Positions 11,060 to 15,121 of a stretch of 64,000 bases of DNA are shown here, piece by piece; positions within the stretch are counted from its first letter, which is position 1; every line of letters starts with the position of its first letter. Made by a program: the position numbers and the translations under genes. This DNA comes from Clostridiales bacterium (GTDB lineage Bacteria > Bacillota > Clostridia > Lachnospirales > Lachnospiraceae): the NCBI GenBank assembly GCA_012839295.1, contig DUNO01000007.1, positions 1-64,000 on the forward strand. The letters are read 5' to 3'. The notes under the pieces are model-generated. The model saw only the letters and a list, made by a program, of their open reading frames with translations, was not told where the DNA came from and made no database searches.

Positions 11060-11214
11060 CTTTATACTACAAAAATCGTATTAACAATATTTACTTGTAA
11101 CATATTACTATCAGTTCTTTTTATGACAAAATTTTTTTGGGCAAAAATTCAGTTCTCTAGGCTGAGCATCCACACGGGTCGTCTTTGACACTTTGCTTAT
11201 CAATAATACATCGC

Positions 11215-11240
11215 AAAGCCTTAAAATGGCTTTATTTTTT
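11215..11240 (+). terminator. Orphan plus-strand terminator-like hairpin
   Basis: AAAGCC pairs with GGCTTT around a 7-nt loop and is followed by ATTTTTT on the plus strand. No plus-strand gene lies upstream of it: the 10,903-11,398 stretch has no convincing reading frame. It could end a short non-coding RNA, act as an attenuator for the osmC operon, or stop antisense transcription into the eut leader. The minus strand has no U-run here. Confidence 0.5.
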
Positions 11241-11285
11241 CGTCAAATTTGAAATTACCTCGAGCAGGCCGAGGCCAATATTATC

Positions 11286-11362
11286 AATTAATACTAGTTA
11301 ATTTTAAATATATAATAGTTGCTTAGCTAACTATTGATTTTTTATTTATAATGTGTTATATT
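11286..11362 (+). promoter_or_regulatory. Promoter of the osmC-lpd-lplA operon with two palindromic operator candidates
   Basis: The -35 TTGATT (11334-11339) and -10 TATATT (11357-11362) are 17 nt apart, placing the start near 11370. Palindrome 1 is AATTAATACTAGTTAATT (11286-11303). Palindrome 2 (11314-11335) has perfect 7-bp arms AATAGTT/AACTATT around 8 nt and overlaps the -35. AT-rich palindromes of this size are typical MarR-family sites, and a MarR gene lies at the end of the cluster. Confidence 0.6.
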
Positions 11363-11398
11363 ATTAACAAAATAACACAAAGAAGGAGAGATCGTATT

Positions 11399-11839
11399 AT
11401 GTTAACTACTTTTAAAGCAACTGCTACAAAATTACCTGAAGGTTTACAGGTTGAAGCAAATTCAAGAGGTTTTAAAATCCTTTTTGATGAACCTGAAGAT
11501 TTGGGGGGTACAGATACTGCCATGAACCCTGTTGAGGCTCTTTTATGTGCACTGGGTGCATGCCAGTCTATTGTGGCAAGCGCATTTGCAGCCGCTCATG
11601 ACATAACTTTCGATGAATTCCGTGTTGAACTGGAAGGAGATCTTGACCCGGATGGATTTATGGGTTTGGCAGACGTAAGAAACGGTTTTCAGGAAATTCG
11701 TTTTGTAATGCATTTTAAAACAAACGAACCAAAAGAAAAAATTGAAGAGTTTGCAAAATTTATAGAGAAGACCTGCCCTGTAGGCGACTGTTTGACTAAT
11801 GGTGTAAAACTGGTTTTATCTGGTGTAGCAATTGATTAG
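11399..11839 (+). CDS. OsmC/Ohr-family thiol peroxidase-like protein
   Basis: OsmC/Ohr proteins reduce organic hydroperoxides with a reactive cysteine pair and are known to be recycled by lipoylated proteins. The 146-residue sequence carries Cys55 in LCALGACQSIVAS and Cys126 in EKTCPVGDCL, the two positions of the catalytic pair; Cys50 and Cys131 are extra. The start at 11399 has AAGGAGAG eight bases upstream. The in-frame ATG at 11351 lies upstream of the -10 and is rejected. The next genes encode a lipoyl-domain dihydrolipoamide dehydrogenase and a lipoate ligase, which suggests they supply its electrons. The redox role is inferred from family and context. Confidence 0.88.
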   Translation: MLTTFKATATKLPEGLQVEANSRGFKILFDEPEDLGGTDTAMNPVEALLCALGACQSIVASAFAAAHDITFDEFRVELEGDLDPDGFMGLADVRNGFQEIRFVMHFKTNEPKEKIEEFAKFIEKTCPVGDCLTNGVKLVLSGVAID

Positions 11840-11852
11840 TTAATACTTCAGT

Positions 11853-11889
11853 AAAAAGAGCCGTTTTTATAAAATTGGCTCTTTTTTTA
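11853..11889 (+). terminator. Terminator between osmC and the lpd gene
   Basis: AAAAAGAGCC and GGCTCTTTTTTT form a stem with a loop of about 14 nt, ending in seven T. Partial readthrough would make the OsmC message more abundant than the downstream enzymes, fitting an abundant peroxidase served by less reductase. Confidence 0.75.
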
Positions 11890-11907
11890 TAGAAAGGAGA
11901 ATGATTA

Positions 11908-13584
11908 ATGATTATTAAGATGTCAGTAATTCCTGGCGGAAAAATGGGTAAAGTAGGTAAGATAAATGTGAAAATCGGTGACAAGATAGCCGCCGGTGAT
12001 ACCCTTGCACAAGTAGAAACTGCTAAAGGAAACCGCCCAATTAAAGCTACATCAGAAGGTATTGTTTGTAAAATACTATATGAAGAGGGTGCAGAAATAG
12101 CATCTAATGCCGATATGTTTGAAGTCACAGAGTGTCTTTTGGATCCTGCTGCAGCAACTATTGAAAGCACCACACAGAGGATTGATAAAGAAGTTTCTTC
12201 CGATTTACTAATAATCGGTGCCGGTCCTGGTGGATATGTAGCTGCTATTTATGCCGCTAAAAATGGCTTAAAGGTAACTTTAGTGGAAAAATCAGAATTA
12301 GGTGGTACTTGTCTTAATATCGGCTGTATACCCACAAAAGCGCTTGTTAAGTCTGCTGAAATTTGCCACAATGTAAAGAATGCCTCACTCTTTGGTGTCA
12401 AGATAGAGGGCCGGATTTCAGTAAATATGAAAGAGGTGATAGACCGTAAGGATAAGGTAAAGGGCAGACTCGTTTCCGGCGTTGATTTCCTAATGAAAAA
12501 AAATGAAATTAATGTAATCTCCGGCCTTGCAACCTTTATTGATAAGAATACCGTAACAGTAAAAGGTACTGAAAACTATACGATAAAAGCAAAAAACATT
12601 ATTATAGCAACAGGTTCAAAAATATCAAATATTGCTATCCCAGGTATAGAGCTTCCCTTTATATTGAATAGTACTACGGCACTGTCCGATCCTGAGCTGC
12701 CTAAATCCATTACCATTATTGGAGGCGGTGTAATCGGTATGGAATTTGCCTTTATATATAAAAATTTTGGTGTTGACGTCCATGTTATTGAATTTATGGA
12801 CCGGTTATTAACCATGGTTGACAGTGATATTTCAAAAGAAATACAGGACATTGCAGAAGAAGATAACATTAACATCCATACTGGTTCAAAGGTTACTAAA
12901 ATTCAGAGTTCAGTAGATGGTATGGCTGTCATAACCTATGAAGATAAGGCTGGAGAACATTTACTGGTAAGTGATAAGGTTTTGGTAGCTATTGGCAGAG
13001 AACCTAATCTGGATGGATTATCAATCGAAAAATGCGGGGTTTTATTAAACAGTAAAGGGAAAGGTATTCAGGTGGATGGTTCCATGCATACGAATATCAA
13101 TCATATTTATGCAATTGGTGATGTAACAAATATTATTCAGCTTGCTCATGTAGCTTCCCACCAGGGTATCGTTGCTGTTGATAATATCTTAGGGAAACAT
13201 AAAGTAATGGATTATTCGGCAGTTCCAAACGTAGTATTTACTTCACCTGAAATTGCAAGCGTCGGTATGGGTGAAGACGAAGCAAAAACAAAGGGCATCG
13301 ACATTACGGTTAGTAAATTTTCATATGCGGGAAACGGTAAAGCCCTTACAATGAATGAGCCCCGTGGTTTTATTAAGCTTGTTAAAAGCAATGCAACCGG
13401 GAAAATAATTGGCGGAGCAATTATAGGTGCCGATGCCTCTTCTTTAATCAGCTCATTGACCTTAGCAATTGCAAATGGATTTACAGAAAAAGAAATCTCT
13501 GAAACAATATTTCCACATCCAACTACTGGTGAAATAATTCATGAAGCAGCATTGGATTTCGGAATTGGAGCCTTGCATCAATAA
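11908..13584 (+). CDS. lpdA: Dihydrolipoamide dehydrogenase with N-terminal lipoyl domain
   Basis: The enzyme oxidises dihydrolipoamide with NAD+ or runs in reverse with NADH. Of 558 residues, 1-77 form a biotinyl/lipoyl domain with the expected lipoyl-lysine Lys40 in VETAKGN. The remainder is a class I flavin disulfide reductase: FAD motif IIGAGPGGYVAA (about 102-113), redox pair Cys135/Cys140 in GGTCLNIGCIP, NAD motif IIGGGVIGMEFA, and a C-terminal catalytic histidine in FPHPTTGEIIHEA. The ATG has AAAGGAG upstream. The lplA start overlaps its stop. No pyruvate, glycine or acetoin dehydrogenase gene is nearby, so the attached lipoyl domain is the only visible lipoylation target; this points to a dedicated partner for the OsmC protein. 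Confidence 0.93.
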   Translation: MIIKMSVIPGGKMGKVGKINVKIGDKIAAGDTLAQVETAKGNRPIKATSEGIVCKILYEEGAEIASNADMFEVTECLLDPAAATIESTTQRIDKEVSSDLLIIGAGPGGYVAAIYAAKNGLKVTLVEKSELGGTCLNIGCIPTKALVKSAEICHNVKNASLFGVKIEGRISVNMKEVIDRKDKVKGRLVSGVDFLMKKNEINVISGLATFIDKNTVTVKGTENYTIKAKNIIIATGSKISNIAIPGIELPFILNSTTALSDPELPKSITIIGGGVIGMEFAFIYKNFGVDVHVIEFMDRLLTMVDSDISKEIQDIAEEDNINIHTGSKVTKIQSSVDGMAVITYEDKAGEHLLVSDKVLVAIGREPNLDGLSIEKCGVLLNSKGKGIQVDGSMHTNINHIYAIGDVTNIIQLAHVASHQGIVAVDNILGKHKVMDYSAVPNVVFTSPEIASVGMGEDEAKTKGIDITVSKFSYAGNGKALTMNEPRGFIKLVKSNATGKIIGGAIIGADASSLISSLTLAIANGFTEKEISETIFPHPTTGEIIHEAALDFGIGALHQ

Positions 13585-14498
13585 TGAAAAAAATAATTAT
13601 ATCCGAAGAATTTGATCCCTATTTTAATATAGCTGCAGAACACCAATTATTTTTAGCCTCGGAAGAAGATCTACATTTATTTCTTTGGCAAAATGATGCT
13701 TCTGTTATCATAGGAAGAAATCAAAACTTTTACGCGGAATGTGACCTTGCATATCTTAAAGAACATAAAATTATGGCGGTCCGCAGGTTTTCCGGAGGGG
13801 GAGCTGTGTATCATGATAAAGGTAATGTCAATTTTACCTTTATTACTAAAGAAAAATCAGCCAGTCATGTTCGCTTTATAGAACTTATACAGTCTGCTAT
13901 GCTGGGACTTGGGATCGACTGTGAATTTAGCGGAAGAAATGATTTATTATACGAAAACCAGAAATTTTCCGGTCATGCTTATTATACTGACGGAGATAAT
14001 TATATGTACCATGGTACAATCCTGGTAAATGTAAATTTTGAACAATTGGGAAAAGCCCTTACACCTTCCGTATTAAAGTTAAAGTCCAAAGGGATCGAAT
14101 CTGTAAGAAGCAGAGTCATAAATTTATCGGAAATTAATAGTGAAATAACTATTCAAACGGTAATTCAAGCATTTATTAAGACCTTTGATTGCCAAAATAT
14201 AGAGTATATTAACAAAACTAATTTAGAACCGCCATTAAAGGGGCTTCTCTCGTCTGACAATTGGTTATACGTCCAATCTCCAAAATTTGATATGGAATTG
14301 GAACGTAAATTTTCCTTTGGAACTATGTCGGTTTATGTTTCTATAGCTGATAATCTGATTCAATCTATTAAAATAAATACTGATAGCCTGAAGCTTTATG
14401 ATTTCAAATCCTGTGAAAATGAACTTAAGGGAAAATACTTTACAGAACAGGCTGTATGGGATTATATTAAGCTATATATTTCGGGTCAGATCAATTGA
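13584..14498 (+). CDS. lplA: Lipoate-protein ligase
   Basis: It activates lipoate with ATP and attaches it to a lipoyl-domain lysine. The 304-residue protein has the cofactor-ligase signature RRFSGGGAVYHDKGNVNFTF at about 71-90 and a shorter C-terminal accessory domain. The ATG overlaps the stop of the lipoyl-dehydrogenase gene (TAATG), indicating translational coupling. Given that neighbour, its likely substrate is the lipoyl domain of the preceding gene product. Base composition is AT-rich like the rest of this cluster. Confidence 0.92.
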   Translation: MKKIIISEEFDPYFNIAAEHQLFLASEEDLHLFLWQNDASVIIGRNQNFYAECDLAYLKEHKIMAVRRFSGGGAVYHDKGNVNFTFITKEKSASHVRFIELIQSAMLGLGIDCEFSGRNDLLYENQKFSGHAYYTDGDNYMYHGTILVNVNFEQLGKALTPSVLKLKSKGIESVRSRVINLSEINSEITIQTVIQAFIKTFDCQNIEYINKTNLEPPLKGLLSSDNWLYVQSPKFDMELERKFSFGTMSVYVSIADNLIQSIKINTDSLKLYDFKSCENELKGKYFTEQAVWDYIKLYISGQIN

Positions 14499-14580
14499 CT
14501 AATAAAAGCTTTAAAAAAATATAGTACACCTAATGGTTTTATGTTAATATAGAGTAAAAAGAAATCAGATGGTGAATATT

Positions 14581-15015
14581 ATGTTTAATTTAGATGATTG
14601 CATCGCTTTTATTACCTGTAAAAGCGCAAAGGATTTAGCAGATTGTTTGGAGAAAAGGCTAAACCATTATAATATAACAAGGAGCCAATGGATTGCATTG
14701 TACTATATCAGAAATAATAACATGATTACACAAAAGCAATTGGCTGATAAAATGTCCCTGAAGGAACCAAGTGTTGTCCGATTACTTGATAAGATGGAGG
14801 TTCTTGGCTGGGTTAATCGAATAAGCAGTACGGATGACAAAAGAATCAAATTTTTAGCTCTGACTGAAAGCGGCCAAAAAATTGAAGCAGCCATGCTGGA
14901 TGTTGCAGAAAAGTTTAAATCTGATGTGCTTAATGGTATTTCCCATGAATACCTCGACAAATTTAAATTGACACTCAGCAAAATGCTTAGCAATATAGAA
15001 AGCGATAACAAATAG
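14581..15015 (+). CDS. MarR-family regulator, OhrR-like
   Basis: A 144-residue winged-helix repressor. The DNA-binding part is ITQKQLADKMSLKEPSVVRL followed by the wing STDDKRIKFLALTESG. The N-terminal helix has Cys7 in the block DDCIAFIT, which aligns with the peroxide-sensing cysteine block CFALY of OhrR; Cys13 and Cys22 also lie nearby. The start at 14581 is preferred over 14569 because GGTGA stands five bases before it. It has its own promoter-like TTGACT (14495-14500). It probably controls the osmC-lpd-lplA operon through the palindromes at 11,286-11,335. The regulator-target link is inference. Confidence 0.85.
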   Translation: MFNLDDCIAFITCKSAKDLADCLEKRLNHYNITRSQWIALYYIRNNNMITQKQLADKMSLKEPSVVRLLDKMEVLGWVNRISSTDDKRIKFLALTESGQKIEAAMLDVAEKFKSDVLNGISHEYLDKFKLTLSKMLSNIESDNK

Positions 15016-15082
15016 TAGAATTTTAGGGTACAAAGGCTTATGAGCCTTTAGAATAAAAGCGGTTCGCCTCCTTTATACAATA

Positions 15083-15121
15083 CCACGCAGCTCCCGGATA
15101 AAACACCGGGGAGCTGCGTGG
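15083..15121. repeat. Strong palindromic hairpin between convergent genes
   Basis: CCACGCAGCTCCCGG and CCGGGGAGCTGCGTGG form a nearly perfect 15-bp stem with a 7-8 nt loop. Neither strand has a T-run after it. It sits between the end of the MarR gene and the end of the anti-sigma gene, so it may work as a bidirectional RNA 3'-end barrier. Confidence 0.6.

Follow-up and report, generated by a model that had tools for sequence, protein, structure and literature searches.

The window analysed here, a 64,000-nt stretch (positions 1 to 64,000 of contig DUNO01000007.1, assembly GCA_012839295.1), comes from a Clostridiales bacterium with a genome of 6.36 Mb, whose genus is common to two metagenome-assembled genomes (MAGs) labelled Lachnospiraceae. 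Open reading frames (ORFs) and profile searches place four genes on the plus strand at 11,399–15,015, in the order osmC-lpd-lplA-marR and flanked on both sides by blocks of minus-strand genes. They form a putative thiol-redox operon, the subject of this study, and agree with the four adjacent genes reported in a preliminary description of the same DNA made from its sequence.

The first gene (11,399–11,839) encodes an OsmC-family protein of 146 amino acids (PF02566, 79.2 bits against a cut-off of 27.5) with a predicted peroxidatic Cys55 and resolving Cys126. It is followed by a dihydrolipoamide dehydrogenase (Lpd; 11,908–13,584), which matches TIGR01350 with 535 bits (cut-off 409) as well as PF07992 and PF02852, has redox cysteines at positions 135 and 140, and carries an N-terminal lipoyl domain at about residues 1–76 (PF00364 at residues 13–70, 37.1 bits against a cut-off of 22.1). 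Lys40 of this domain lies within ETAKGNR, and the predicted structure (pLDDT 79.2, with low confidence at the linker 77–91 and also at 130–141 and 536–558) puts it at the hairpin between strands 32–38 and 41–46, confirming the lipoyl domain with Lys40 previously ascribed to the dehydrogenase. The gene overlap seen earlier amounts to one base, TAATG, shared between lpd and lplA. The latter (13,584–14,498) encodes an LplA-type lipoate-protein ligase (TIGR00545, 304 bits, cut-off 280; PF21948 and PF10437 also present). The last gene (14,569–15,015, alternative start 14,581) encodes a MarR-family regulator (PF01047, 54.5 bits, cut-off 24.6) with a cysteine, Cys11, near its N-terminus.

The GC content at third codon positions (GC3) of osmC, lpd and lplA is 0.25–0.29, below that of all 49 other ORFs of at least 140 amino acids called mechanically in the window (minimum 0.30, mean 0.47). 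At 0.37, marR is no outlier, as five of the 49 are equally low, so the AT-rich composition claimed earlier holds for the first three genes and not for marR. The window holds no gene for a lipoyl-dependent complex; the host's one GcvH and full-length GcvP matches lie on another contig (C7, the window being C5) and no E2 was found, in line with the absence of nearby 2-oxoacid dehydrogenase or glycine-cleavage genes pointed out before. An Rfam scan of 11,100–15,100 gave nothing at the gathering threshold.

Relatives of the OsmC were sought in named genomes with the OsmC alignment and two peptide patterns (FVMHFKT and MLTTFKAT), a scan that finds only relatives keeping either one; of 25 loci (L numbers; genomes carry G numbers), the weak L060 (33%) was dropped. 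The 24 remaining loci span Lachnotalea, Lacrimispora, Clostridium, Neobacillus, Paenibacillus, Bacillus kwashiorkori and an Erysipelotrichaceae MAG. Lack of conserved co-occurrence of the four genes had been named beforehand as one way to refute the module, and the loci do not refute it: Lpd lies downstream on the same strand in 18 loci (17 with the lipoyl region), MarR is present in 16, LplA in 10 and all four genes in eight, though LplA is missing from eight of the 18 Lpd-bearing loci. In L041 Lpd is broken, without a lipoyl region; in L039 it is divided between frames, and in L047 it contains an insertion. Some genomes hold two copies (L044 and L045; likewise L041 and L052), and some loci overlap between samples (L039 is G007, L040 is G024).

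The same linkage appears in broader samples. Within the window genus (34 genomes, own included), Lpd relatives 77–79% identical occur in two others, preceded by OsmC and followed by LplA and MarR. A phylum sample of 398 genomes gave 32 with an OsmC at E ≤ 1e-45 and eight at E ≤ 1e-70, own included. All eight close OsmCs have Lpd within about 1.5 kb, its lipoyl domain being confirmed by Pfam in six (the other two loci are too short), against one of 22 less close OsmCs (divergent, L179; loci were given for 22 of 24). L154 and L185 coincide in position, which makes G779 and G865 probably a single genome. In the family of Paenibacillus oralis (295 genomes), five genomes have an OsmC at E ≤ 1e-70 and four of these have the Lpd; one of these genomes is probably that of the phylum sample. 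The module is not a general feature of the host's own family, an idea rejected because a close OsmC occurs in one of 397 family genomes, the own one, and two weaker OsmCs there lack Lpd; G024 and G007 carry the module yet are absent from the matches of this sample.

The distribution of the module is scattered. The window OsmC is 92–95% identical to those of Lachnotalea, Lacrimispora and a Clostridium sp., and 82–84% identical to those of two members of its own genus. Because it is closer to proteins of other genera than to those of its own, and because GC3 is low, the data favour acquisition of the module as a unit, as had been suggested. Flanking genes differ between loci, with no common hint by eye, and one copy of the module lies on a 543-kb Paenibacillus plasmid.

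Among the 24 aligned OsmCs, Cys55 and Cys126 are invariant, as are Cys50, Arg23 and Glu46. The predicted OsmC structure (pLDDT 81.9) best matches Mycoplasma pneumoniae OsmC (1lql, TM about 0.67), with Geobacter 2opl as the other closest structure; by query length, the TM-scores of the two are no higher than 0.62–0.68. Foldseek gave 58 PDB matches at E ≤ 0.001; of the 50 listed (TM 0.50–0.69), 48 are titled OsmC, Ohr or osmotic/hydroperoxide protein and two, 2egt and 1ml8, have neutral titles. The matches include 6ebg, an Ohr structure whose title mentions dihydrolipoamide interaction. The protein falls short of the named Ohr, OsmC and YhfA subfamily models (NF041052, 72.9 of 95 bits; TIGR03563, 20.5 of 166; NF052637, 17.9 of 240) and belongs, as far as we found, to an uncharacterised subgroup. 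Membership of the E. coli YhfA type was rejected, as 1ml8, which we take to be E. coli YhfA, reached only E 0.45 in the profile comparison. YhfA proteins are said to lack both the catalytic Arg and Glu (PMC8945050). In two Paenibacillus genomes a second, distant OsmC (34.5% identical, without the second cysteine) lies upstream of the module (L042:6213–6623 and L048:6261–6671).

Lys40, Cys135, Cys140, His537 and Glu542 are invariant in 16 aligned Lpds, and Lys40 also in all 19 rows that reach its position (of 23). Trees were made by quick searches without bootstrap; L049 and L058 sit on long branches, and the Lpd tree has outgroups at genus level only. Within these limits a starred group (99) unites the module Lpds to the exclusion of the genus's other Lpds, with one intruder, L011, that has no lipoyl domain. 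Such an intruder, together with the absence of LplA from seven Paenibacillus loci and L047, could indicate that the lipoyl domain and LplA are remnants and that Lpd reduces OsmC or small disulfides directly. We regard this as very improbable, given the invariance of Lys40 over 16 diverse Lpds, the retention of LplA as the only detected ligase in four genomes described below, and a duplicated lipoyl domain in L052. Two observations deserve mention in their own right: the lipoyl-less Lpd (L011:1465–2898, G023) adjoins a diaminopimelate-dehydrogenase-like gene (by eye) close to a contig end, and the module Lpd of Paenibacillus maysiensis (L052:1796–3760) has its two lipoyl domains in tandem.

Lipoate use was surveyed across four genomes that carry the module: Clostridium sp. 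Marseille-P2415 (G034), Lachnotalea glycerini (G035), a MAG (G037) and Clostridiales COT073 (G041), in which the module lacks MarR. No true GcvH was found in any of them, weak matches in biotin-carrier frames at most, and no E2, by a search that is sensitive to E2 since it found matches in G038 and G050. G034 has one GDC-P match (26.6 against 26 bits, profile positions 139–259 only, in a 453-aa frame), taken for a related enzyme because similar partial matches occur in G000, G035, G038 and G050. Among the PF00364 matches read, no lipoyl domain other than that of the module Lpd was seen; the remainder are biotin carriers (AMKM, AMKL, AMKI) or HlyD-like proteins, called by motif and eye, and four weak matches of G035 (385–474 aa frames) were left unread. 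Each genome has exactly one member of the LplA/LipB family, the module LplA, and LipA was found neither in these four nor in the window genome, by a search that does not cover other lipoyl synthases. With no other acceptor, ligase or LipA found, the lipoyl domain of Lpd looks like the only lipoyl group of these cells; absence is not proof here, as G037 is a MAG and the completeness of the four is not given. In the LplA tree, made as above, a branch (SH-aLRT 91, not starred) separates the module ligases, all on its one side, from other LplAs.

An apparent sole lipoyl group argues against a role of Lpd in glycine cleavage or 2-oxoacid oxidation in these genomes. Such a role, as ordinary E3 with OsmC as an unrelated neighbour, is that of the fold and of the TIGR01350 model, and glycine cleavage genes exist on another contig of the window genome and adjoin a related module in family f74 (see below). 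Against it, the four genomes have no GcvH and no E2, so that an E3 function was rejected for them, a verdict that does not extend to the window genome; the latter has a second LplA–Lpd pair, located on the same contig as its glycine cleavage genes. The separate grouping of module Lpds from the genus's other Lpds, and the linkage of close OsmCs to Lpd at a rate far above that of less close ones, point the same way. We therefore consider the E3 explanation very unlikely.

The lipoyl domain might instead serve a partner other than OsmC, as a signalling device or substrate carrier, with OsmC only co-regulated. Dedicated LplA–acceptor pairs of this sort exist in SirTM (PMC4518038) and LbpA (PMC6067878) systems. 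The SirTM operon of S. aureus and S. pyogenes resembles the module in its operon-specific LplA2, its own lipoyl acceptor and its link to oxidative stress (PMC4518038); it differs in that the module acceptor is fused to Lpd and no GcvH-L was recognised. By eye, without a profile search, no sirtuin, macrodomain or GcvH-L was recognised among the ORFs near the module in the window and five relatives, nor a sirtuin, macrodomain or Hdr-like gene around L036, L038, L046, L058 and L049. Fusion of the lipoyl domain to its own NADH-dependent reductase points to redox turnover, and a non-OsmC partner appears very improbable.

Control of the operon was approached through the MarR protein and its candidate operator. 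A MarR gene near a gene of the OsmC fold, with a palindromic operator over the promoter, is the arrangement of OhrR–ohr and SlyA-type regulons, and the module shares the regulator, the OsmC-fold gene and the palindromic box. The regulator fits no named model, is far from the OhrR model (47.7 against 200 bits) and is matched better by SlyA, PA3341 and Lin2960 structures than by OhrR; the label OhrR-like, proposed earlier, is a loose one. Cys11 is invariant in all 18 loci compared (14 aligned, plus L041, L044, L045 and L052), while Cys17 and Cys26 are not. It is the MarR cysteine nearest to the reactive cysteine of OhrR, which we take to be Cys15. By HMMER alignment end points it is two residues off (residue 7 versus 9 of 1z91), so its placement at the OhrR sensor position, as first described, is approximate.

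A predicted promoter (TTGATT, 17 nt, TATATT, with TG before the −10; 9/12 matches) spans 11,334–11,362 on the plus strand, and the predicted operator GCTTAGCTAACTATTGA, with the palindromic core TTAGCTAA, lies at 11,321–11,337 and overlaps its −35 hexamer. Of 18 MarR-linked loci, 17 have this 17-bp box at the −35, no further than 300 bp upstream of OsmC and with one mismatch at most; of 12 loci without MarR, none has it (absence being defined by tblastn with the window MarR, E ≤ 1e-3, within the stretch available). The sole MarR-linked locus without the box is L058, whose MarR is the most distant; L055, which has a box on a contig ending before the expected MarR position, was left out of the count. 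Fisher values of 1.5e-7 and 5e-6 overstate independence, because loci overlap between samples. In L053, where Lpd is absent, OsmC, MarR and the box are kept, which ties the box to MarR and OsmC. A search of 17 whole genomes gave 16 sites no more than one mismatch away, 15 of them at an OsmC of the module clade (14 with Lpd, one with MarR only); a wider regulon was accordingly rejected, with one exception, in G039. This exception, L137 (G039:C40:34438, Neobacillus rhizosphaerae), is a single site with one mismatch away from any module gene. Of the two promoter palindromes first described, only the box has comparative support; the sequence preceding it differs in the other loci inspected. A similar −10 (TGTTATNAT or close) follows the box in most box-bearing loci inspected by eye; promoter-type sites predicted with 9/12 matches are no rarer in shuffled sequence.

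Between osmC and lpd, a hairpin with a T run (11,853–11,893, plus strand; 17-nt arms, 88% complementary; z = −2.4 against shuffles) is a predicted leaky terminator or mRNA 3′ end. The internal terminator reported before is thus present as a hairpin, although an automated terminator scan did not list it. Most of the 17 spacers folded have a post-osmC hairpin, which ends in a T run in the window, L036–L040 and L043, has none in L044–L046, L050 and L052, and has a T run with a weaker fold in L042 and L048. Of nine spacers compared with shuffles, eight have z values of −1.5 to −5.5; that of L050 is 0.08.

Taken as one pathway, these elements suggest the following scheme. LplA would attach lipoate, probably scavenged in the window genome, where LipA was not found, to Lys40 of Lpd. 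Lpd would take electrons from NADH through FAD and the Cys135–Cys140 disulfide and, in reverse of its usual direction, pass them to its own lipoyl group, swinging on the flexible linker. The dihydrolipoyl group could then reduce the Cys55–Cys126 disulfide of OsmC, formed in the reduction of an organic hydroperoxide as the most likely substrate. MarR is predicted to act as repressor at the TTAGCTAA box, which covers the −35, and to be released upon oxidation of Cys11, and the hairpin after osmC may lower lpd–lplA output, keeping OsmC in excess over Lpd. This chain, from NADH through Lpd and lipoyl to OsmC and peroxide, is the most likely one by analogy with published Ohr/OsmC chemistry, and we estimate a probability of about two in three that the locus is such a self-contained, horizontally mobile, MarR-repressed thiol-redox operon. 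The functional reading given in the preliminary description, a unit with a built-in shuttle, a linked ligase and a cysteine-bearing MarR, gains support in these parts from gene order, operator linkage and the genomes without other lipoate users.

Related arrangements widen the range of possible acceptors. A second order, LplA – lipoyl-Lpd – OsmC, was found in four genomes read over 13–15 kb (three of family f74, one of f55): in L213:3951–7603, where an AhpD-like CMD protein separates Lpd from OsmC, and also in L214, L222 and L215. In the three f74 genomes it adjoins genes recognised by eye as those of glycine cleavage; for L213, Pfam confirmed GcvH and the two GcvP halves. Its LplA falls on another tree branch than the module LplAs, so the association of LplA, lipoyl-Lpd and OsmC may have arisen more than once. 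Acetoanaerobium noterae (NZ_CP154629.1, L224:5002–8617) has the order MarR – AhpD-like – lipoyl-Lpd – LplA, with no OsmC in the surrounding 13.6 kb. Its MarR frame (L224:5002–5433) follows a GGAGG ribosome site and contains one in-frame TGA, which falls precisely in the invariant Cys11 column and probably encodes selenocysteine, with a nonsense mutation as the alternative; selenocysteine there would speak for a redox function at this position. A selenocysteine insertion sequence (SECIS)-like hairpin follows the TGA and, folded three ways, gave z values of −2.2, −1.1 and −1.3.

The main rival explanation keeps the same electron chain and replaces peroxides, as substrate and signal, by reactive sulfur (persulfide or polysulfide) or other electrophiles. 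Many of the hosts come from anaerobic groups, in which exposure to peroxide is low. In G779 (L217:2501–4424) the module is followed by a thioredoxin-like gene, an ArsR–rhodanese fusion and a rhodanese, and on the plasmid of Paenibacillus sp. 37 (L223:7337–9263) by trxA, an ArsR-type regulator and a thioredoxin-family gene. Sulfane sulfur, too, is a signal for MarR regulators that carry reactive cysteines (PMC11211675). Against this, no sulfur genes were recognised by eye near the operon in the window, L036 and L038, and the OsmC/Ohr and AhpD families, the latter present in the sister operons, are known for peroxides. We hold reactive sulfur to be possible, if unlikely.

Several observations weigh against the proposed NADH-to-peroxide operon. 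Six of the 24 OsmC loci have no Lpd in the available flank (L051, L053, L054, L056, L057 and L059), and neither has one of the five Paenibacillaceae genomes with a close OsmC, which suggests that OsmC can use another reductant; in C. glutamicum, thioredoxin too recycles an Ohr (PMC4486171). Ohr-grade peroxidase chemistry is not assured, since no NCBIfam model fits and Arg23 and Glu46 are not placed relative to Cys55. In the eight Lpd-bearing loci without LplA, lipoylation must come from other enzymes, and the lipoyl-less L011 sits inside the module Lpd clade in another gene context. The sole-client argument derives from relatives, as the window genome has a glycine cleavage set. Allowing up to two mismatches, the box has 40 matches in 17 genomes against 77 for a reversed-pattern control (not split by mismatch), so the operator evidence rests on the location of the near-exact sites. 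Finally, the thioredoxin, rhodanese and ArsR neighbours could mean reactive sulfur.

Relays of the kind proposed have precedents. The mycobacterial AhpC–AhpD–DlaT–Lpd peroxidase passes electrons from NADH through Lpd, a lipoyl group and a thiol relay to the peroxidase. Such a relay, and the OsmC–AhpD system of C. glutamicum (PMC8945050), resemble the module and the AhpD-like proteins of its sister operons, whereas the window operon has no AhpD and carries its lipoyl domain in cis on Lpd. For C. glutamicum Ohr, recycling is best with Lpd/SucB, next with LpdA alone, and poorer with thioredoxin (PMC4486171); in X. fastidiosa, LpdA by itself is stated to support Ohr (PMC8945050) and is termed a lipoylated enzyme (PMC3469484). 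Both systems share with the module a two-cysteine OsmC fold, NAD(P)H, Lpd and a lipoylated donor, and a single LpdA can suffice. Their donors are not described, in the accessible text, as co-operonic with the peroxidase, whereas the module forms a single conserved operon, including in cells where no further lipoyl protein was detected. In a system of eukaryote organelles, OsmC likewise receives electrons from lipoate via L and H proteins (PMC7946386); these are separate, whereas the module has its lipoyl domain fused to Lpd. The decarboxylase of that system is termed incomplete in the title of the original study. No description of this operon was found by title or abstract in the open-licence PMC literature searched.

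Lipoyl-dependent peroxidases are known mostly with separately encoded housekeeping donors, while here donor, carrier, ligase, acceptor and sensor would be brought together in one operon. Its presence in genomes with no other lipoate use found would make a clean system for testing lipoyl-to-OsmC transfer as a physiological pathway, and could show which substrate is used by an OsmC subgroup that fits no named model. We see an even chance that some anaerobic Firmicutes scavenge lipoate only for this operon, as the dedicated shuttle of a mobile thiol defence unit with an OsmC- or AhpD-type acceptor and a private MarR that uses cysteine or even selenocysteine. The operon could then explain why a lipoate ligase is retained in bacteria without 2-oxoacid dehydrogenases, glycine cleavage or LipA.

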